This document shows, piece after piece, positions 52,771 to 64,000 of a stretch of 64,000 nt of DNA (positions are counted from its first letter, which is position 1; every line of letters begins with the position of its first letter). Source of the stretch: Melanopsichium pennsylvanicum (Eukaryota; Basidiomycota; Ustilaginomycetes; Ustilaginales); contig OAPG01000018.1 of assembly GCA_900208305.1 (NCBI GenBank), forward strand, positions 248,001 through 312,000, given 5' to 3'. The position numbers and the translations under genes are program-made. The notes under the pieces were generated by a model, which saw only the letters and a program-made list of their open reading frames with translations, was not told where the DNA came from and ran no database searches.

Positions 52771-54042
52771 ATGACGATGAACCAGCCTTGCCCTTGGTGC
52801 AAGCGCTTGGTCCCGTCTTCTCATTTTATTGGTGTCCGCGGCAACACAGTCAAGCACTGTGCTGGCTGCCGCAAGCAGAACCCAGTGGTAGCTCCTCCCC
52901 CGGAGAGCCACATCCCCTCTCCACCCAGGTCGCCCTCCCTTCGCCGATCTCGCTCTCTGTCTTTCACCGCCTCCCCCACTCCAGCTGTCCGCGACCGCAG
53001 TGACGTAGCATCAGCTGCGTCTGTTGTGGCCCTCGAGACCCGCCTCTCCTCACTTGAGCAGAGTCTCGACGGCAAGATTAGCGAGTTGCTCAACGCTTTC
53101 CGAGCTTCTCAGCCCCTCGCCGCCCAACCCCCCTTTCCCTCGGCGCTCTTGCCCACGTCGCAAGCGCCACAGGCTTCGCAAGCGCTACCTTTGCTGCAAG
53201 CTTTGCCCCCGCCTCCTCGACCTCGAGCCCCCCCAGCAGTTGAGCCGGTACTCCTCCCTGCTGGTCAATCTTCTATTACCGCAGGTGAGTCAGCTCCTCT
53301 CTCCATCACTCGCTGCTTTGCCTGGGTCCCTTTGGAGGTGGTACACCAAGTCGAGCGCGACCAGCTCAAGCCCGAGCATCTGGTCAAGCTCCGCAATCCT
53401 GAGTTGCGGGTCTCCAAGGAGCCCACTCAGGAACAAGGCTTCACGCTGGGTGCCGGCGGTACTCTCTCTGTCGTACAAGAGAACGCCGATTCGCGCACCT
53501 CCAGCTTCATTAAGGCCATTCCGAACATCGCCGCCCTCGCCCAAGTCTGGTTGGTTTACATAGCCATCAGAGTTTGACACACAGGCAATATCGCACTCAA
53601 CGAGGCTCTGCTTGCATACTTGGAGCATCTTATTGAGTGCGATCACCTCTACACTTGGCGCGCCGTCGCAGACTACCACCTAGCAGTCTGTCGACAACGA
53701 TTTGGTACCGGTGCCGTCCACGAGTGGTCATCCTACGACCCTCAAATCAGCAGCCGGGTCCTGTACCCCTTCCTCAAGACCGGCCACCCCTCCTGCGGCG
53801 AGTCCAGCTCAGGCTCCCGCCAACCTGCTTTACGGCCCGCTAACCGCATCACCAAGGCCATCGCCGCGGGGGGCTCCTTTGACCCCTGCCGCAAGTACAA
53901 CGCCGGCCAACCATGTTCAGGGTGCAACCGTCACCACGCTTGCCTGCATTGTCAGCACAAGCACCCGATGACGCAATGCCCCATGCTCAGCGGGAAAGCC
54001 GGCTCCTCCTCCCACCCCACCACCGTGAAGAAGGCAACCTAA
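52771..54042 (+). pseudogene. Gag-like ORF1 of the DIRS-like element, one in-frame TGA
   Basis: From the ATG at 52771 the frame runs 423 codons, broken only by TGA at 53575-53577. The N-terminus has paired cysteines (CPWCK ... CAGCRKQ), an Arg/Ser-rich stretch and a coiled-coil-like segment (ALETRLSSLEQSLDGKISEL). The central part (FVPLEVVHQ-like to LAQVWLVYIAI) resembles capsid-type regions of DIRS gags. After the stop the frame continues in phase (TGNIALNEALLAYLEHLIE), and the C-terminus holds Cys/His clusters: DPCRKYNAGQPCSGCNRHHA, then CLHCQHKHPMTQC. This matches the cysteine-histidine tail of DIRS/Ngaro gags. The stop implies inactivation or read-through. Confidence 0.65.
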
Positions 54043-54111
54043 CAGTGAGTATGCCTTCTCACTCAGGCGACTCGCATCGCCTTTGGCCTGCAATCTCTTC
54101 CGCAGCGCCTC

Positions 54112-54475
54112 CAAGGTCAGAGCCGGCCTCTACACCTCCGTTCCTGCCCGGTCGGCATTACAGTACAACCGCCCGGCCTGAGCTAAGCTCAGCGCCGTTG
54201 TTCCTGCCTGGTCAGCATCGTACAACCGCCCGGCCTGAGCCAGTCTCAGCGCTGATGGTTCTGCCTGGTCGGCTCATAACACCACCAAGGTCAGCACCTT
54301 CTGCTGCACCTTCTTTTCTGCCTGGCCGGCTTCACAATACAACCGCCCGGCCTGAGCTTGACTCAGCCCCAAGGTTTCTGCCTGGTTGGCCCACAATACA
54401 ACCACGAAGGTCAGCACCCCATGCTGCACCTCCTTTCCTGCCTGGTCGGCCTACAATTGCACCACCTAGGCACAC
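54112..54475 (+). repeat. Coding minisatellite, about 57-60 bp unit
   Basis: About six to seven diverged units encode PRSEP-S-P-FLPGR or TTARPEL-SAP-FLPG variants near the start of ORF2. Recurrent words are CTGCC(T/C)GGTCGGC and CCGCCCGGCCTGAGC. Confidence 0.7.
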
Positions 54476-56042
54476 ACTCTCGTCGTGCCCTAGTCCTTGT
54501 CCACCGGTGGACACCATCGCCAACGGCATTGTCGACATGCCGCCTGACCTTGCCACCTCCGCCCTTCTCCCTCTTGTCGCAGGACAACAGCCGCCGCCGC
54601 CAAGGCCCAATACCTTGTGCGAGCGGCCCATCTTTGACGTCTCCGACGTCCCCGCCACAGTTGGTTCCCTCCAACTTCGCTTATGGTCCAGCTTCCTAGA
54701 CCTTTACCCGGACCAAGCCTTCGCCACCCAGCTGCGTGGTGCCTTGCGTCACGGTGTCAAGCTAGGCTACAACGGACCGCTGCGTTCCGCAGCCCGTCTT
54801 GAAGTGGCCAACTTGCCCATGAGCTCTGACGACGTTGCACATCTGCGTCGAGAGATCCAGGCGCGCCTGGAAGAAGGCCGCCTTTGCCATGTTGCCGACC
54901 CTGGCAACATCAATCTCGTCTGCTCCCCGGTGGGAGTCGTGCCCAAGCCTCACTCCGACAAGAGGCGCACGATCTACCACCTCTCTCACCCTTGAAAGCC
55001 GGGAGCTTGCCTGCCGTCCGTCAACGACGGTATACATCCCTCCTTCGTCACCATTCACTATGAGGGCCTTGACGCGATCATGGATTTCATCCGTGAGCGT
55101 CCAAGCGCCTCGTTGTGGAAAGCAGACTTGGAGGATGCCTTTCGGCATGTCATTGTGGCTGAGTCTGATGCCAGACTCATGGGCATCCACTTTGACGGCC
55201 ACTACTATCAGGAATGCGCGCTCGCTTTTGGTGGACGCTCGTCGCCATTCCTCTTCAACTTGTTCGCTGAGTTTCTTCACTGGTTGGCTTCCTTTGCCCT
55301 CCGGTCTGTGTCCACGTCGTCGACATCGCATTCCGATGTGGCACACTACTTGGACGACTTTTTCGGCGCCTCGGACGCATCCGCCAATCCTGCCGTGCCA
55401 ATCCATGTGCTCAGTCTGGCAGCTGCAGCACTTGGATTCAGGATTAGCCACAAGAAGACGTTCTGGGACACCACAAAGCTCGAGATACTGGGCATCAAGC
55501 TCGACTCCGTGGCCCAGACCGCCTCCATCACTCAAGAGCGCCGCCAGCGAATCCTACAGCGGTGCTTGCGCATCGTCAACAGAGGCCGTGCCTTGCTGCT
55601 GGAACTTCAACAAGTAGCAGGCCACCTTCAGTTCGTCACCCGCGTGGCTCCTCATGGCCGTGCCTTCCTCCGCCGCCTGTACGACGCCGTCAAGGCTCAC
55701 CACAAGGCTCCCTTTGGCCGCCGTATCAGCAAAGCAACTCGTGCCGAGCTGGTTTGGTGGATCAACACCCTCAACTCCTGGGACGGCGTCTCCCTTCTCC
55801 AGCCCTTGCCGCTCATCATTGAGCACATCTGGACGGATGCTTCAAAGCGAAGCATTGGTGGACACCTCGGCAGCATGGAGGCTCCACTCGCAGTCTTCAG
55901 CAAGGACCTCTCTCGCCGCCACCGCCAAAAGGACATCCGCTTCCTGGAAGCCCTTGCCGTCCTGGAGGCCTTGCGCCGTTTCGCCCCCCTCTGGTCTGGA
56001 CCTCGCCGCGTTGTTATCCATGTGGACAACGAGAACGTCGAG

Positions 56043-56047
56043 TTTGG
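56043..56047. repeat. Left target-site duplication TTTGG
   Basis: Identical to 63682-63686 at the other end of the Ty3/gypsy element. Confidence 0.9.
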
Positions 56048-56476
56048 TGTTAGTGCCTACCAACCGGAGTCCAAAGAGGGGTGCTCGGCCCCCCTCCCGA
56101 TTGAGCGATTGTCGTGATCGGGCCCCGATCGACCCTCTCCGGACCCCTCGCAGCGGAGCGGTCGGCCTGACACGATCCTCCTACCGCCCAACCGCGGCTG
56201 GCTCCTCCGTACGTAGGATACGACCGTCGGCAACCTAACATTGTAACGCCGCGGTGGGAAGTGACCGATAGTTCCTGTACCTTACCACCCCGCCCCCGCC
56301 TGACATGAGGTTGCCTCCGGACCTCGTCGCATGTATTACTTAGTTAGCTCTATAGCAACGCAGTAGTGTGCTCTGACCCCCAACCGCCTGTGTCGCCCCG
56401 CCTACGACCTCTCCGTACCCGTAGCCTCCATCCCGGCTGTAGCCGCCCGCGGTATCTAGACCCTACAGCCTTAACA
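56048..56476 (+). repeat. 5' LTR of the Ty3/gypsy element
   Basis: Starts TGTTAGTGCC, ends CCTTAACA. By eye it differs from the 3' LTR at three C/T positions and one G of a G run. Confidence 0.93.
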
Positions 56477-56487
56477 TTACATGCGAC
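56477..56487 (+). other. Likely self-priming primer-binding site
   Basis: TTACATGCGAC lies directly after the 5' LTR and does not start with TGG as a tRNA-primed site would. Ten of its bases (56478-56487) are exactly complementary to GTCGCATGTA at 56326-56335 inside the LTR. This fits the Tf1/sushi mechanism, in which the RNA 5' end primes its own reverse transcription. The transcription start needed for this is not proven. Confidence 0.55.
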
Positions 56488-56515
56488 CTCCCCACGGGAC
56501 GACGTCGTAACCAAG

Positions 56516-57751
56516 ATGAGTACACGCTCCAACCGACGAAACCAAACGGACGCCTCCCCCCAAGCGGAGGGAGACGCTCCCACCATCTCCCCCAGCGGAG
56601 ACGAGCCCGCCAGCGTCGTTGCACCCTCGGGCGAACCGCCCGCCGCCCTGACCACCTTGGTCCAAGGGCAAGTGGATATCCTGGCGCTTCTGCGTGAAAC
56701 CTCTGAACAACAGCGGCGCATTACCGCTCTGCTAGAGGCCGCCTTCTTCCCCAGGGAGGATCAACCTAGACCGGAGTCTTCCCAGCACTACCAAGGAGCA
56801 ACCGCTGCCCAGGTCCCCCCGCCAACCGTAGCCCCCGTCTACGTGGAGGCCGCGCCCCGCGAGCCAGAGATTTGACTCCAGGCTCCGGAATGGGACGGCA
56901 GCCAAGACAAACTGGAGGACTTCTTGGATCAATGCGAACTCAACTTCGAGGCTAATCCCTCCAAGTTTCCGACGGATGCCCGTCGCATCATGTTTGCCAT
57001 CGGCAACATGACGGGCAAACCACGAACCCGCATTCGCAATGTGCGACAACAGGAGGGGGAGGGTCCGCCCTGGATGAGCTCCTGGAGGGCCTTTTGCGCC
57101 GACCTCCGTCGCGTCCATGGCGATCCCGACCCCAGCTACACCGCACGCCTCCAACTGAATGCCCTCCGCCAGAAGGGATCAGTATCGGAGCACGCGGCGG
57201 AGTTCATGTCGCTGACGGCCAAATTGCACCTGACCGACCAGCAGCAGGCGTTGATGCTGTTCGAACAAAGCCTCCGGCCGCGCCTACGGGAAAAGCTCAC
57301 CCACGTGCCGATGACCGACATCCGTGACTTCATCAACGCCGCCATTGTCACGGAGCGCCGGATGCAGGTGATACAGGAGGCCACGACAAGACCCGCAGAG
57401 TCACAGCTGCGACACCGACCGCCCCTCCCAGCCGTGACGGCCAAACGAGAGCCCCCGGAGGGACCCCGCAAAATGGAACGACCTCCACTACCGGCCAAGG
57501 ACCCTACGCGTGATGCGGCGGAACGCCTCCGCCAGCACCGACGGACCAACGGGCAGTGCTTCGGCTGCGGTGGCAGCGACCATTTGGCCCGTGACTGCCC
57601 GAAGGCGCCCCAAACACAAACTCTCCGGGCACATGCTATTTCATTCGACAACGATTCCGGGACTATACTCGTCAACCCCATGGATGACGGGTCAGCCTCC
57701 AACCCCGACAGTGACCTATCGGATTTGGAGGATCCCCCGGAGGGAAACTAA
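56516..57751 (+). pseudogene. Ty3/gypsy gag, one in-frame TGA
   Basis: From MSTRSNRRNQTDAS at 56516 the frame encodes about 411 codons, interrupted by TGA at 56873-56875 (after VEAAPREPEI). It resumes in phase with APEWDGSQDKLEDFLDQCEL, the typical start of a Ty3 capsid. The nucleocapsid end has a CCHC zinc knuckle, CFGCGGSDHLARDC. The frame closes with TAA at 57749-57751, directly behind the slippery site. The TGA may be a recent nonsense mutation (CGA to TGA would do) or a read-through stop; the rest looks intact. Confidence 0.8.
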
Positions 57752-57786
57752 GGGTCGATGGGTTCCTTCGGTCCGAACCCATCGAC
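57742..57786 (+). promoter_or_regulatory. -1 ribosomal frameshift site between gag and pol
   Basis: The heptamer G GGA AAC (57742-57748) is in gag phase and followed at once by the gag stop TAA. After a 5-base spacer, GTCGATGGGTTC (57754-57765) pairs perfectly with GAACCCATCGAC (57775-57786) around a 9-base loop: a 12-bp stem. The -1 frame entered at the heptamer is the pol frame. Slippery heptamer, spacer and stem match the classical retroviral arrangement. Confidence 0.85.
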
Positions 57787-60700
57787 AACCTAAGCCAGCT
57801 CCGGGTGCTCGCCGCAGCATTCTGGGCAGCCCACCGGACCGACACTCCCGTCGTGGAGCAAGAGGGATCCGTTCTCCGGATCCATCAACACCCTACCTTA
57901 CCAACCTACGAATGCTTGGTAAGCGTCGGCGACACGCAAGGCCTTGCCTTGCTCGATACCGGCGCCACCGCCTCTTTCATTACTCCCAAAATGGTCGCAA
58001 CGGCCAACATTCCTACCCACTCCCTCCGTAAATCCGTCCACGCCACATTCCTCCAGGGCATGTTGGCCGCCATCAGTCGCCACGCGGCGGTGGATATCAT
58101 CATCAACAACCACTGCATCACCTCACGCCACCAACTCTTCATCACCCCCATGACCTCCCACAACGTGCTGTTGGGGATGGATTGGATCGAGGCCGCCAGG
58201 CCGGAGCCAAACTATACCCTCCGTACGTGGGACCTCCGGGTCCCCCACACCGTCACGGTGCCCTCCATTCCCAAAATCGAAAAGAACGAACTCCACAACT
58301 TGGTCGGCCGGCGACAGCTGGTCTCCGCTGAGGAGGACCTGCTGGTCCTCCCAGAACCGGAAGAGGAGCTACTGCCCCTCCGAGCTTCTGCGACCGACCT
58401 CGCCGTCCTACCGCCACAGTACCGCGAGTACGCCGACGTCTTCGACGCCGAGAGGGCCGACCAATTGCCTCCCCACCGCCCACACGACCACGAGATCAAC
58501 CTGGAGGCTGGCAAAACCCCTCCCTACGGCGCACTCTACTCCCTGTCGCACCGCGAACAAGAGGAGCTCCGGAACTACCTCCGGAAGATGCAGGCCATTG
58601 GCTTCATCCGACCGTCAAGTAGCCAAGCTGCCGCGCCCCTCCTTTTTGTACCAAAGAAGGACGGTCGCCTCCGGCCGTGTGTGGACTACCGCGCCCTCAA
58701 CGCCATCACCGTCAAGGATCGCTACCCGATCCCCCTCATCTCCGAACACCTTGATCGGCTGGCGACGGCCAAGATCTTCACTAAATTCGACCTGAAGGGT
58801 GCCTACAACCTCCTCCGGATCGCCCCCGGCCACGAATGGAAGACCGCATTCCGCACGCGCTACGGCAGCTACGAATACCTCGTCATGCCGTTCGGCCTCT
58901 GCAACGCTCCGGCGACCTTCCAACGGCTCATGAACCACGTGCTGTCGGATCTCTTAGACGTGTCCGTCATCGTATATCTGGACGACATCCTAGTCTTCTC
59001 CGACAACGAGGCCGACCACCACCACCACGTCTGCCAAGTGTTGGATCGACTACGGAAGCATCAGCTGTATTGCGCTCCGGACAAATGCGAATTCCACACC
59101 GACTCCGTCGAGTTCCTCGGCTACCTTGTCAGTCCCGACGGCCTCTCCATGGACCCGACCAAGGTCAACACAGTCTTGGAGTGGCCGCCACCACAGTCAA
59201 TCCAACAGATCCAAGTCTTCCTCGGATTTGCCAACTTCTACCGTCGCTTCATCCGCCACTATTCTCGTGTAGCGGCCCCCCTCACCGACCTCCTGAAAGG
59301 AGGAGCCTCTGGAAAGGTAGATCTGCCCCCGGAAGCAACGGCAGCCTTCAACCGGCTGAAAGAAGCGTTCACCTCTGCCCCTATCCTCCGGCACTTCTCT
59401 CCAACGCTCTACACCGTCGTCGAAACAGACGCGAGCGATGCTGTGGTAGCCGCCGTGCTGTCGCAGTGGCACCCACAGCCGGGCGCCGACGCGAGCGCCG
59501 AGCCCAACAGCCGCTCGCATACCCTCCATCCTGTGGCATACTGGTCGCGAAAGATGATCCCGGCGGAGCGTAACTACGAAATCCACGACAAGGAACTCCT
59601 GGCTATCGTAGACGCCTGCGGCGCTTGGAGACACTACCTCCATGGCCTCACCCGACCGTTCCTCATTTACACCGACCACCAGGCGCTCCAGTATTTTCAG
59701 ACGAAGCGACAACTCAACCGTCGCCAAGCCCGCTGGCAAGCCGACCTGGCTGAGTTCGACTTCGTCCTCCACTACCGTCCGGGTAAGGAGGCCGTCCGCC
59801 CCGACGCTCTGAGTCGCCGGCACGACTTGTTCCCCGACGGACCGTCGCGCCCAGACCCCGCCAACCAAGCCACTCTCCTCCCTGCAAACTTGTTTGCAAG
59901 GGCAGCCGGCGTACACTCCTTGGACCCCCTGCCTACGGAGTGGATCGAAACCCTCCGGAAAGCGGCCAACCTCCCCCCAAACGTTGCCGTCCGCGATGGT
60001 GTCCCGTACACCACAGAGGGTCACGTCTACCTGCCACCCCAATTACGGGACAAGGCACTCCACCTACTGCACGACCACCCTACGGCGGGACATCCTGGCC
60101 GCAAGACGACCCTCCATCTCATGCGTCAACGTTTTTACTGGCCAACCATGGTGCAGGACACCGACAGCTATGTCGCCTCTTGCGCGGCCTGCCGAAGGGC
60201 TAAACACCCCCGTCACAAACCCCACGGCTACCTTCTCCCGTCGGTCCCTCCCGATCGGCCGTGGTCCACTATTACCATGGACCACATCACTGACCTCCCG
60301 CCCTCCCTTGCCAACGGCACCACCTACAACTCCATTCTTGTAGTCGTCAACCGCCTCACCAAGTTTGTGGTCTTCATTCCTGCAAACAAAACCGATACGG
60401 CGGAGACTTTGGCGTACCAGCTCCACCGCTACGTCTTTTCATACTTTGGCCTCCCGGACACCATTGTATCTGACCGAGGAACCACGTTTGTAGCTTCCGT
60501 TTGGACGGAACTCCTCCGGGCCCTCCGGATTAAAGGGTCTTACTCGTCGGCCTACCACCCTCAAACAAATGGCCAGACCGAGCGAGCCAACCAGACGCTG
60601 GAGTTGTTCCTCCGCTTCTATACGGCCTACGACCACAGCGACTGGGCAACCCTCCTGCCGACAGCCCAGCTTGCGCTGAACCAAAGACCGTCGGCGACCA

Positions 60701-61311
60701 CAACCATCGCTCCGGCTATAGCTTGCTTCACGTTTGCACCTCGGGCACACCCCTCCATCCCCCCGGCCACCTCCAACGTTCCGTCGGCGGATAAAGTGCG
60801 GGTGTGCCAGGACGCCATCGCCAGAGCCAACCTTGCCGTCGCGAAGTGGTTTAACCGTCGCAGGAGCGACGTCTCGTTCCGCCGGGGGGACCTGGTGCTC
60901 CTCCGTACCAAGCACCTCCGCAGCGACCGACCCTCCCACAAGCTCTCCAACCCCCTTGCCGGCCTGTTCAAAGTCGACAAGGTGATTAGCGACCGAGCCT
61001 ACCGACTCCTCCTGCCTCCGTCGTGGAAGGTCCACCCCGTCTTTCACGTACAGATGCTGGAGCCATACCCCGACGGAGTCAGGGAGTCCAGCAACGCCCC
61101 CCAACCGACTACTCTGGAGGACGACTACGCCGATTTCGAAGTTGAGGGCGTATTGGACTCCCGCCGCCGCGCCGGACGCCTACAGTACAAGGTCTCCTGG
61201 GTAGGGTACCCCCCAAGCTGGGTCCCGGCGGAAGACGTGGACCGCGCCCCGGATCTGGTCGCTGCGTACCACGCCGCGAACCCGACCAAGCCGGCCCCTA
61301 CCCGGCGTTAG
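57742..61311 (+). CDS. Ty3/gypsy pol polyprotein with chromodomain
   Basis: About 1189 codons in the -1 frame relative to gag, without stops. Order: protease with ALLDTGATASFIT (about residue 72), reverse transcriptase with KFDLKGAYNLLRI, PFGLCNAPATFQ and VYLDDILVF (about 411), RNase H with VETDASDAVVAAVL and DHQALQYF, integrase HHCC zinc domain (HDHPTAGHPGRKT ... CAACRRAKHPRH) and catalytic core (VSDRGTTFVASVW; AYHPQTNGQTERANQTLE), then a chromodomain at the C-terminus (EVEGVLDSRRRAGRLQYKVSWVGYP is its core). Chromodomain elements (chromoviruses) often target heterochromatin. No ATG starts the frame, consistent with expression by frameshifting from gag. All catalytic residues I can see are present. 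Confidence 0.93.
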   Translation, partial: GKLRVDGFLRSEPIDNLSQLRVLAAAFWAAHRTDTPVVEQEGSVLRIHQHPTLPTYECLVSVGDTQGLALLDTGATASFITPKMVATANIPTHSLRKSVHATFLQGMLAAISRHAAVDIIINNHCITSRHQLFITPMTSHNVLLGMDWIEAARPEPNYTLRTWDLRVPHTVTVPSIPKIEKNELHNLVGRRQLVSAEEDLLVLPEPEEELLPLRASATDLAVLPPQYREYADVFDAERADQLPPHRPHDHEINLEAGKTPPYGALYSLSHREQEELRNYLRKMQAIGFIRPSSSQAAAPLLFVPKKDGRLRPCVDYRALNAITVKDRYPIPLISEHLDRLATAKIFTKFDLKGAYNLLRIAPGHEWKTAFRTRYGSYEYLVMPFGLCNAPATFQRLMNHVLSDLLDVSVIVYLDDILVFSDNEADHHHHVCQVLDRLRKHQLYCAPDKCEFHTDSVEFLGYLVSPDGLSMDPTKVNTVLEWPPPQSIQQIQVFLGFANFYRRFIRHYSRVAAPLTDLLKGGASGKVDLPPEATAAFNRLKEAFTSAPILRHFSPTLYTVVETDASDAVVAAVLSQWHPQPGADASAEPNSRSHTLHPVAYWSRKMIPAERNYEIHDKELLAIVDACGAWRHYLHGLTRPFLIYTDHQALQYFQTKRQLNRRQARWQADLAEFDFVLHYRPGKEAVRPDALSRRHDLFPDGPSRPDPANQATLLPANLFARAAGVHSLDPLPTEWIETLRKAANLPPNVAVRDGVPYTTEGHVYLPPQLRDKALHLLHDHPTAGHPGRKTTLHLMRQRFYWPTMVQDTDSYVASCAACRRAKHPRHKPHGYLLPSVPPDRPWSTITMDHITDLPPSLANGTTYNSILVVVNRLTKFVVFIPANKTDTAETLAYQLHRYVFSYFGLPDTIVSDRGTTFVASVWTELLRALRIKGSYSSAYHPQTNGQTERANQTLELFLRFYTAYDHSDWATLLPTAQLALNQRPSATTTIAPAIACFTFAPRAHPSIPPATSNVPSADKVRVCQDAIARANLAVAKWFNRRRSDVSFRRGDLVLLRTKHLRSDRPSHKLSNPLAGLFKVDKVISDRAYRLLLPPSWKVHPVFHVQMLEPYPDGVRESSNAPQPTTLEDDYADFEVEGVLDSRRRAGRLQYKVSWVGYPPSWVPAEDVDRAPDLVAAYHAANPTKPAPTRR

Positions 61312-61494
61312 GCACGGATACGAGCGACGGTCGCCGTCGGGAGACCCCCCCGCCGGAGCCAAAACCCCTCCGGTCCCCGACCTCTGGGGTAGGAGACCCG
61401 GTCGGGCTCCCCTCACCCCCACTCCCACACACGGACACACACACACGCAAGCGACAGAAAAGAAGACAAGTGCATTCGAGGAGGGGCCCCGGGG
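61312..61494. other. Spacer between pol and the antisense gene
   Basis: 183 bases with a short (CA)n tract near 61424-61446. This would be the tail-to-tail junction of pol and the antisense gene. Confidence 0.5.
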
Positions 61495-62949
61495 CTAGTC
61501 CCTCAGGAAGCCCTCCAACCACGCCCAGACCACGTCCACCTGCTGTCGCGTGTTCTGCAACAATTGCTGGATCTCGCTGATCCGGCGGAGCTCTCGCTCG
61601 CCGCCGGTCCTCAGCGACTCTGTCAGCAACAGCGCAGCCACGTCGGCCAGCCCCTGTTGAAATAACTCAGTCCCCTCCTGCACCCCGTGGAAGAGGGACT
61701 CGGCACGCCTTACGGCCGCACCCAGGTCCCCCAGGCCCGTAGCGGACTCCCCCGGCTGGCCTTGGGCCCGCGCCCGAGTGCGACGCCGCTCTCGGGCAGC
61801 CTCGGCTGGACGGTCGGGGCAAGACCTAGCTCGCTTGCGAGCCGCCTCCCGCTCCCGACCCACCGCGCCCACCCGAGCCACCTCCTCCCTCAGTTCCTCC
61901 TCCTCCTCCGGGATCTCGCCAAGTGTCCTCAGCAACAACCTGACGTTGGGGTGGGGGCGGCGACGCCGACCGACCCCTCCGGACCTCCACCTCTCAAGCA
62001 AGCACGCGTAAACCCTCATTCGGAGGGGACCTTGGGCGCCGCCAAGTGGTGGGACTGTCGAGGAAAACAAAAGGAGGAACAAGAGTCAGCCGACCACCCA
62101 GGACATCGCGACAGACGCCCGACGGAAATACTTACCGCGCATATCCGCGTCGCAGGGTTGCCCGTGCTGCCCCTGACACCGACGGCAGCGGACATCGCCT
62201 CCCGCCCGCTCACAGGCAACGCCGGCGCATACGCAGCCGTAGCAATTGCCCCACGTCTCGGCCCATAGCGGGGCAAGGTCTGTCGTATCGGCCACGGAAA
62301 CACAAACGTCAGTAGCGATCCCAATCAACACAGCAATGGAACAATACTTACCATCACCAACAAGTTCCGGAGTGATCTCGATGGGAACCGAAGGACGCGA
62401 CCACGGCATCGAATTCCGGGGCGCCAGGACGAGGGAAGTGTTGGTCGATGCAGAGGAAGGAATGGCCGACGGATCGGCAGACTGTTGACGCACGGCGCGC
62501 TCGCGACGGCCCGAGTTGGCCCCCCGGGAAAGGTGAGCACGCGGAGAACGGCGCACCCCCCGGATGGGACCAGCGGAGGTCTCTGACGGCCGATCTGTCG
62601 TAATCGAAACAAGGGGGAGGGAACAAATGTCAGTAACCTATTCCACGGCACCAACCGGTGGTTGTCAGACCCTCTGGGCCCCCCATCCGCAACCGAATCA
62701 CAACGGAACCACGATCGACTCACCTCCGGAAGCGGGTAACGTTGTTGTTGTTGTTGGTGCTGTTGTTGTTGTTGCTGCTGCCGCTGTTGCCGACGCTGCC
62801 GCCGTCGTGGACGTAGGCGATGGAGGGGGAACGGTACTGACACCGGCCGACGGGTTGTCGGCCGGGGAATCCATGGAAGCGTCTGCTGGTGGCGACGACA
62901 TTGCGAAAAAAAGACAATCCAAGGAAGCGTCTGCTGGTGGCGACGACAT
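61495..62949 (-). CDS. Antisense spliced cargo gene in the Ty3/gypsy element: Cys-cluster and helical protein
   Basis: Four exons on the minus strand: 62949-62724, 62594-62352, 62279-62136 and 62054-61495. The introns of 129, 72 and 81 bp start GTGAGT, GTAAGT and GTAAGT and end ACAG; all are phase 1. The joined frame has 390 codons and no stop. Residues 1-75 are Ser/Thr/Pro/Ala-rich with a tandem duplication; 76-156 are basic and disordered. Residues 157-204 hold six cysteines at 169, 172, 179, 188, 191 and 199, spaced CX2CX6CX8CX2CX7C, the spacing of a fungal Zn2Cys6 cluster. Residues 205-390 are charged and helical with basic patches (GRRRRP, RKRAR, RERRRTRAR). A nuclear DNA- or RNA-binding role is inferred only from this. 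I know no named family for it. Confidence 0.75.
62055..62135 (-). other. Intron 3 of the antisense gene
   Basis: 81 bases, GTAAGT...CGACAG, with a T-rich tract before the acceptor. Confidence 0.75.
62280..62351 (-). other. Intron 2 of the antisense gene
   Basis: 72 bases, GTAAGT...CGACAG. Length divisible by three and free of stops, so retention would keep the frame. Confidence 0.75.
62595..62723 (-). other. Intron 1 of the antisense gene
   Basis: 129 bases, GTGAGT...CGACAG, phase 1. Confidence 0.75.
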
Positions 62950-62960
62950 TGCAAAAAAAA
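62875..62960. repeat. 48-bp tandem duplication at the antisense gene start
   Basis: GGAAGCGTCTGCTGG units begin at 62875 and 62923. The duplication repeats the antisense start codon and its first residues (AMSSPPADAS) 16 codons apart, in frame. Confidence 0.8.
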
Positions 62961-63251
62961 GAATGGGGAAGAATGGGGGAAATCGAGAAGGAAGACCCGT
63001 CAAACCCCATCCTTATATCCTTCCTCGATAGCTACGCACGAGCAATGGCGCACAGTCAATTCCGCCGGTCCAAGGCATTGTGGGTGGTATTGCCTCATTG
63101 CTGCGCATCCGCGATTAAATTGCCAAGACGAGCGTCGCAACTTGTACAGAGAGGCGCCCCTGGCGCGGATTAAGGTTGAGGGAGTACGACCCCCCTCGCC
63201 CTCCTGTCCTATCAGCCGCCTGGGGACCAGTCGGCCTGAACCGGGGGGTAA
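62950..63251. promoter_or_regulatory. Region upstream of the antisense gene, before the 3' LTR
   Basis: 300 bases without a frame of interest. It must hold the antisense promoter unless that promoter lies in the 3' LTR. It ends in the polypurine tract. Confidence 0.4.
63241..63251 (+). other. Polypurine tract
   Basis: CCGGGGGGTAA directly precedes the 3' LTR; the G run is the plausible plus-strand primer. Confidence 0.6.
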
Positions 63252-63681
63252 TGTTAGTGCCTACCAACCGGAGTCCAAAGAGGGGGTGCTCGGCCCCCCT
63301 CCCGATTGAGCGATCGTCGTGATCGGGCCCCGACCGACCCTCTCCGGACCCCTCGCAGCGGAGCGGTCGGCCTGACACGATCCTCCTACCGCCCAACCGC
63401 GGCTGGCTCCTCCGTACGTAGGATACGACCGTCGGCAACCTAACATTGTAACGCCGCGGTGGGAAGTGACCGATAGTTCCTGTACCTTACCACCCCGCCC
63501 CCGCCTGACATGAGGTTGCCTCCGGACCTCGTCGCATGTATTACTTAGTTAGCTCTATAGCAACGCAGTAGTGTGCTCTGACCCCCAACCGCCTGTGTCG
63601 CCCCGCCTACGACCTCTCTGTACCCGTAGCCTCCATCCCGGCTGTAGCCGCCCGCGGTATCTAGACCCTACAGCCTTAACA
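63252..63681 (+). repeat. 3' LTR of the Ty3/gypsy element
   Basis: Starts TGTTAGTGCC, ends CCTTAACA; matches 56048-56476 with four differences seen by eye. Confidence 0.93.
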
Positions 63682-63686
63682 TTTGG
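63682..63686. repeat. Right target-site duplication TTTGG
   Basis: Identical to 56043-56047. Confidence 0.9.
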
Positions 63687-64000
63687 CCTCCGTAAGGGGT
63701 CCATCCGTGATCCTCTGACCCAGGTGCTCTTCAGGGAGATCTTTGCCCTGTGCCTACAGCAGCACATCGACCTCGTCCCTGTCCGCGTCAGCTCAGATGA
63801 CAATGTGCTTGCTGACGCCCTCTCCCGTCGCCGTTTTGCCTCGATCCAGCAGCAATTCCCGAGGGCCTCCTCCCTCTTGCGGTTCAACCGCCCGGTAGCT
63901 TCGTCGAGGCTTCCGGCCTCTCCTCCTCGGCCGCTCTCCTCCTCTGGAACGGCCTTGTCGCCAGCACACGTGCACGATCCGTCGCCGTGTGCGTTGACTT
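63682..64000 (+). pseudogene. RNase H end of DIRS-like ORF2 and start of a tyrosine recombinase frame
   Basis: Counting the duplicated TTTGG once, the ORF2 frame resumes exactly in phase with GLRKGSIRDPLTQVLFREI and ends its RNase H with SSDDNVLADALSRRRF, a typical terminus. In a different frame, from about 63840 to the edge, the sequence encodes ASGLSSSAALLLWNGLVAST, which resembles the N-terminal core-binding start of tyrosine recombinases (WNGL-STR). The recombinase proper lies outside the window. Confidence 0.6.

Follow-up and report, generated by a model that had tools for sequence, protein, structure and literature searches.

In the smut fungus Melanopsichium pennsylvanicum, a 7.6-kb Ty3/gypsy chromovirus bears, on the strand opposite to gag and pol, a four-exon gene that is, judging from the comparison of its genome copies, very likely real, that is, protein-coding and constrained. 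Our main reading, to which we assign a probability of roughly 0.6, is that it is an accessory antisense gene of the element, whose product is predicted to be nuclear and would likely regulate the element's own transcription or RNA. Real genes can go unnoticed within repeats, and the present one provides a multi-copy fungal system in which the role of antisense accessory genes of LTR retrotransposons can be tested, along with the question of a repeated origin of retrovirus-like antisense control.

The chromovirus and its antisense gene

The window, i.e. the whole 64,000-nucleotide stretch of DNA that was analysed and to which all plain positions refer, was placed on contig C18 of the 21.1-Mb, 61-contig genome of M. 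pennsylvanicum (Ustilaginales). The element spans positions 56048–63681 and is flanked on both sides by the target-site duplication (TSD) TTTGG. It is a Ty3/gypsy chromovirus, as defined by gag, the order PR-RT-RH-INT, a C-terminal chromodomain (Pfam Chromo, E = 2.6e-7 at pol residues 1111–1156; rve also matched) and LTRs with the TSD (Table 1). It is apparently nested in another retroelement (53913–56117 and 63682–64000; RVT_1 and RNase H-like Pfam matches at 55080–56114), the frame of which is broken at 56048. Outside the species, the best Pol relatives among the 120 matches listed were two ENA proteins (81% and 78% identity), two JGI proteins (72% and 70%) and those from Pseudozyma flocculosa (67% and 66%). 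Viral contigs searched with pol and exon 4 gave no relatives.

Table 1. Positions of the features of the chromovirus and its antisense gene within the window
Feature	Positions	Strand	Description
5′ LTR	56048..56476	+	429 bp; starts TGTTA, ends TAACA; TTTGG TSD directly left
gag region	56924..57751	+	Pfam Retrotrans_gag and CCHC knuckle (zf-CCHC); putative start (ORF start)
pol	57805..61311	+	Pfam protease, RVT_1, RNase H, integrase, SH3-like, chromodomain
Spacer, pol stop to antisense stop	61312..61494		183 bp
Exon 4 and stop	61495..62054	-	acidic stretch, Arg-rich basic stretch, C-terminal helices
Intron 3	62055..62135	-	81 nt; GTAAGT...CTGAC...CAG
Exon 3	62136..62279	-	144 nt; flanked by phase-1 introns; cysteine cluster CX2CX6CX8CX2CX7C
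Intron 2	62280..62351	-	72 nt (73 in most copies); GTAAGT...CTGAC...CAG
Exon 2	62352..62594	-	Arg/Ser-rich
Intron 1	62595..62723	-	129 nt; GTGAGT...CTGAC...CAG
Exon 1	62724..62949	-	Ala/Thr/Pro-rich; upstream ATG 62949, older ATG 62901; least constrained
TATA-like GGATATAAGG	63011..63020	-	candidate antisense promoter (putative function)
3′ LTR	63252..63681	+	430 bp; TTTGG TSD directly right

The antisense gene (61495–62949, minus strand) lies between pol and the 3′ LTR, so arranged that pol and the gene stand tail to tail (pol ends at 61311, the antisense stop is at 61495). A first-pass annotation of the window had described four exons, three GT-AG introns of 129, 72 and 81 nt, all in phase 1 (after the first base of a codon), and a joined frame of 390 codons, and all of these were found exactly as claimed: the joined exons amount to 1173 nt, or 390 codons plus the stop. 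Every intron of the window copy has a GTRAGT donor, a CAG acceptor and a CTGAC branch-like motif 33–39 nt before the intron end. As a description of the product, the 390 codons stand only in part: the frame is open, but its first 16 codons (62949–62902) derive from a 48-bp in-frame tandem duplication (a 47/48-bp repeat at 62868–62962), and this start-codon-bearing duplication was found in part of the family only. Since ATG 62949 is often missing (11 of 31 aligned copies) and ATG 62901 is near-universal (31 of 31 aligned copies, 35 of 36 full-span copies), the form of 374 amino acids is taken as the older protein. The length of an Ala/Thr triplet run in exon 1 (62738–62800) also varies among copies.

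The TATA-like GGATATAAGG sits within the 302 bp separating exon 1 from the 3′ LTR. Among 30 loci (L009–L038), its core is unchanged in all 29 in which the surrounding 24-base motif is present; the exception is L036, in which no such motif was found and an inverted piece of LTR adjoins the gene. Measured from the start of the motif, ATGTCG follows at 78–87 bases in 25 of the 29 loci, while two loci have it only at 127 and in the other two it was not found. On these sequence grounds, the conserved GGATATAAGG would fit an internal antisense promoter, as reported for gene23 of the plant element Grande (PMC7264820).

The gene accompanies the element family. Reverse transcriptase (RT) matches of at least 94% identity, partial ones included, numbered 38, and the gene was found 2.6–5.6 kb downstream in the expected orientation in 31 of them and within 12 kb in three more; it was absent near the other four, two of which are at contig ends. 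Exon 3 alone gave 45 genome matches at E ≤ 10, approximately the number of first-family copies plus fragments. Copies lacking RT were considered as non-autonomous elements, and this was rejected for the three examined (on C18, C13 and C19), which carry pol pieces 97–99% alike and look truncated; outside this set are those on C15, at C7:460639, C1:2072917 and C5:404895, and the C8 fragments. At C8:514123-515678 and C1:2072917-2076455, gene copies or fragments lie near each other in opposite orientation and might give rise to hairpin RNA.

A second chromovirus family (65 RT rows, 55–59% identity) is commoner than the first. In L044, the one full copy of it that was read, pol ends approximately 0.5 kb from the LTR, leaving no room for the gene, and the second family, judged on this one copy, appears to be without it. 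Its members L043 (on C22) and L044 (on C15) have RTs approximately 58% identical and LTRs of roughly 1 kb, which hold tandem repeats with 53-base spacing. On C8, an exon 1 match (497727–497903) and an exon 2/3 match (506137–506541) on the same strand flank a second-family RT (501979–502698), an arrangement that looks as if the second family had been inserted into an old gene copy.

Frame, splice signals and selection among genome copies

The gene region gave 44 genome matches, of which the 36 with full or near-full span (from query base 1–43 to the end) were all compared. In 33 of these 36 copies the joined frame runs unbroken between the second ATG and the common stop codon, the exceptions being L028 (frameshift by a 5-base deletion), L050 (internal stop) and L052 (no second ATG). 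Of the 36 copies, 35 have a GT donor at intron 1 and all have one at introns 2 and 3, with L020 keeping the frame and having AT in place of GT at the intron 1 donor, and the CAG acceptor and CTGAC are unchanged in all 36 copies for each of the three introns. Sites in splice signals varied far less often than those in intron interiors (3/42 vs 65/240, p = 0.0025). Eight of the nine coding indels (3, 3, 6, 9, 9, 9, 18, 24 and 5 bases) had lengths divisible by three, against none of the four intron indels, each of one base (p = 0.007); this test is weakened because triplet slippage in the Thr/Ala run of exon 1, in or near which 6 of the 8 in-frame indels lie, itself favours threes.

Because the copies have recent common ancestry, their intact frames are not independent evidence; many copies are approximately 98% alike, and in a neutral simulation 46% of copies were still intact after 20 substitutions. 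The divergent copies L029–L037 differ from the window copy at 88–111 positions and are all intact from the second ATG (9 of 9), compared with 6% and 3% of simulated copies at 75 and 100 substitutions, a comparison that is loose on account of the shared ancestry of real copies. The first-pass annotation had held that chance would not keep such a frame open and had proposed to check whether other copies keep frame and splice sites with dN/dS below 1. The copies bear this out: the frame is retained beyond chance with near-invariant splice signals, random stops or lost splice sites were looked for and did not occur (33 of 36 frames intact, each donor in at least 35 of 36), and the between-group dN/dS is 0.49.

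This ratio comes from comparison of 20 A-type with 9 B-type copies (dN = 0.036, dS = 0.074), whose intron interiors differ by 0.067, and shifted frames gave 0.88 and 1.18. By exon, dN/dS was 0.95, 0.48, 0.45 and 0.33 for exons 1, 2, 3 and 4, respectively. When each variable site was counted once across the 36 copies, the ratio of nonsynonymous to synonymous sites (N/S) was 0.71 in the coding frame (p = 0.007) and 1.01 and 1.40 in the other two frames of the same strand; the same site test on pol gave 0.65 (13 copies, p = 0.001). For the 13 young copies alone, N/S of the antisense gene was 0.85 (p = 0.27), and for sites common to at least two copies it was 1.65 among the 13 young copies (p = 0.91) and 0.81 among 31 copies (p = 0.15). 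Some of the tests are thus non-significant, and purifying selection, as estimated from these alignments, would be modest and comparable with that on pol; the constraint on the antisense frame looks real but moderate, resting partly on the divergent copies.

One element-sense frame over the gene also showed a low N/S (0.79, p = 0.018), which is probably the mirror of antisense wobble positions. An env-like gene on the sense strand was rejected as a candidate there, as each element-sense frame has 8–15 stop-making changes among 31 copies, with N/S of 0.79–1.40. In 300-base bins, five B-type copies differ from the window copy by 3.5–8.7% over 62048–62947 and by 0.3–4.7% in pol. Exchange of the gene region between subfamilies was considered and set aside; the difference profile climbs gradually with no clean breakpoint, and recombination is not claimed.

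The predicted protein and its possible roles

The product is rich in arginine (49 of 390 residues), with basic clusters RRRR, RKRAR and RERRRTR in exon 4, the last two following the acidic stretch. The Zn2Cys6 cluster (PF00172) has a spacing range of CX2CX6CX5-16CX2CX6-8C, and canonical members are basic between the second and third cysteines. The first-pass annotation had read six cysteines in Zn2Cys6 spacing in this protein. The spacing CX2CX6CX8CX2CX7C is indeed present (residues 169–199, with a seventh cysteine inside), but membership in the family did not follow, as there was no Pfam zinc-cluster match even at E = 10. Shuffling the whole protein 20000 times never produced such a spacing, and shuffling the exon-3 region as often produced it 6 times; 35 of the 36 full-span copies retain the seven-cysteine pattern.

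Pfam searches with the spliced protein at E ≤ 1 found no family, hence no PF00172, no Transposase_28 (PF04195) and no bZIP, and searches with protein pieces at E = 10, in which the HMMER filters drop most weak matches, gave only two weak matches, in the Ala/Thr-rich part. Nothing meaningful was found in NCBIfam. Among solved structures searched by sequence, the best match was RAD23B (E = 0.003), confined to the Ala/Thr/Pro-rich N-terminus, and Foldseek gave no match at E ≤ 0.001 (best 0.29 in PDB and 0.014 in viral models). A structural model of the deposited protein P0001, which is without exon 3, shows two long helices over the C-terminal 76 residues (block pLDDT 75–88), the rest being of low confidence; for a deposited protein that includes exon 3, and hence the cysteine cluster, the model has a mean pLDDT of 41.

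Relatives were sought in two protein-database searches by shared five-residue words, in each of which the approximately 8000 top-sharing candidates were scored. Among these candidates, seven proteins matched, all from M. pennsylvanicum and deposited as uncharacterized, and none from outside the species. Six of the seven use at least one of the predicted junctions or exons. P0001–P0004 (MEPE_05065, 05912, 04496 and 00722) share the intron-1 junction but splice exon 2 straight onto exon 4, i.e. exon 3 skipping appears in four deposited gene models of other copies, and P0005 and P0007 use the exon-2/exon-3 junction. In L027, the apparent source copy of P0001 by contig and type, the cysteine exon is intact. 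P0007 (MEPE_01710, 630 aa) has exons 2–3 fused to a protein matching PF00565 and PF00567 of Pfam, and this fusion is either a host gene that took the exons or an annotation error.

We infer that an accessory regulator is the most likely role, although for a regulatory role of the product, considered by itself, we put the odds a little below even. In the mechanism we propose, a separate minus-strand mRNA would be transcribed from the internal promoter near GGATATAAGG (63011–63020) and spliced in the fungal nucleus. The product would be imported to the nucleus through its Arg-rich stretch, its cysteine cluster would bind metal and its C-terminal helices would dimerise. Once nuclear, the Arg-rich, cysteine-cluster, helical protein would likely act on expression of the element itself. 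Retroelement genes are expected to lose introns on copying through RNA, and here three predicted introns persist because the gene lies antisense: the spliceosome would not remove them from the genomic RNA, to which they are antisense, and they would survive retrotransposition, which fits their presence in 36 of 36 full-span copies. As all introns are in phase 1 and exon 3 has 144 nt, this exon could be skipped without a frameshift, and isoforms that contain or lack the cysteine cluster would result. That the gene is an independently arisen, HBZ-like spliced antisense regulator in which a cassette exon 3 switches feedback states on the element's own LTR or RNA is a more specific version that we consider rather doubtful.

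Four other explanations were weighed. The product could be structural or enzymatic for the element, e.g. a nucleic-acid chaperone or a particle component, and not a regulator. Several retroelement proteins are Arg-rich, of low complexity and helical, as this product is or is predicted to be; however, if expressed separately from the antisense strand, it would no longer be coupled to Gag-Pol, and Pfam gave no match to a retroelement structural domain, which makes such a role unlikely in our estimation. Alternatively, it is the antisense RNA, not the protein, that matters, pairing with genomic RNA and dampening the element via double-stranded RNA or interference. The gene is wholly antisense to the genomic RNA of the element, and antisense RNAs of retrotransposons with such proposed effects are discussed in the accessible sections of PMC7264820, but an open frame, three-base indels and fewer amino-acid changes in one frame are all unneeded by an RNA and yet observed, and we consider it improbable that RNA alone accounts for the gene.

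An intron-bearing host gene captured antisense and carried as a passenger, which the first-pass annotation had suggested, was given just as little weight. Three introns of ordinary form and the lack of similarity to other retroelement genes speak for it. On the other side, the genome matches listed include no recognisable host paralogue, the 45 exon-3 matches at E ≤ 10 are, where placed, element copies or fragments, and no homologue outside the species was among the approximately 8000 candidates scored per search, which a distant donor could escape; a passenger should, moreover, decay neutrally, but the frame constraint is comparable with that on pol. The suggestion found no backing among the genome matches listed or the proteins scored. 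Finally, a chance ORF was rejected on the copy comparison, and it is very improbable that the frame stands open by accident, in copies that are GC-rich and young, with nothing made from it: long ORFs are common on both strands of the window DNA, and near-identical copies would often stay intact by neutrality, but the intact divergent copies, the conserved splice signals and the indel lengths all oppose it.

Comparison with known systems

A close likeness to the gene is found in plant Ty3/gypsy elements, which carry antisense ORFs after pol (aORF-3R: gene23 of maize Grande, rice RIRE2, and TRP28 of Silene Retand), as described in the accessible parts of PMC7264820 and PMC11963269. According to these, gene23 of Grande has a nuclear product and a promoter of its own, located upstream of the gene, and TRP28 of Retand is predicted to bind DNA. 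The smut gene has the same position and orientation and is likewise retained in most copies of its family (33 of 36 full-span copies intact), and its frame, which lies between pol and the 3′ LTR on the strand opposite to gag-pol, is open only after exon joining. It differs in its fungal host, in its chromovirus carrier (Retand is a non-chromovirus), in its three introns and in a protein unrelated in searches. No word beginning with 'intron' occurs in the main text of PMC7264820 or PMC11963269; in its accessible sections the former calls for a search for spliced antisense transcripts and leaves the function of antisense accessory genes open for plant elements.

HBZ of HTLV-1 and APH of HTLV-2/3/4 are minus-strand retroelement genes that have spliced transcripts, HBZ being a nuclear regulator of the LTR of its own element (PMC10186651, accessible parts); in the smut gene, splicing is predicted. 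Unlike hbz, which is expressed from the 3′ LTR and whose product has bZIP features, the smut gene has an internal candidate promoter and three introns within the coding region, and its protein has no bZIP match. Resemblance to fungal Zn2Cys6 (Gal4-type) proteins consists of six cysteines in the order CX2CX6CX8CX2CX7C and a downstream predicted helical region, whereas the smut cluster lies mid-protein, includes an extra cysteine and has no Lys or Arg between the second and third cysteines.

Additional ORFs are also carried by bdelloid LTR retrotransposons, whose ORF3s have spliced messages and are separate transcription units, and those described in the accessible text of PMC5408684 are of env, DEDDy, GDSL, CC and TM types, antisense intron-bearing genes not being among them. 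The legend to a fungal chromovirus figure (PMC2864245) notes a further ORF in some surveyed element, and the 25 genomes of that survey (its Table 1) include no smut fungus. In the accessible text of PMC5408684, PMC3411680 and PMC9603552, no fungal antisense retrotransposon gene with introns is described, and a literature search over titles and the beginnings of abstracts, covering few subscription journals, likewise returned no fungal intron-bearing antisense retrotransposon gene. Compared with the plant and HTLV systems, the present gene is distinct in residing in a fungal chromovirus, in having three introns inside its coding region and in encoding an unrelated protein.
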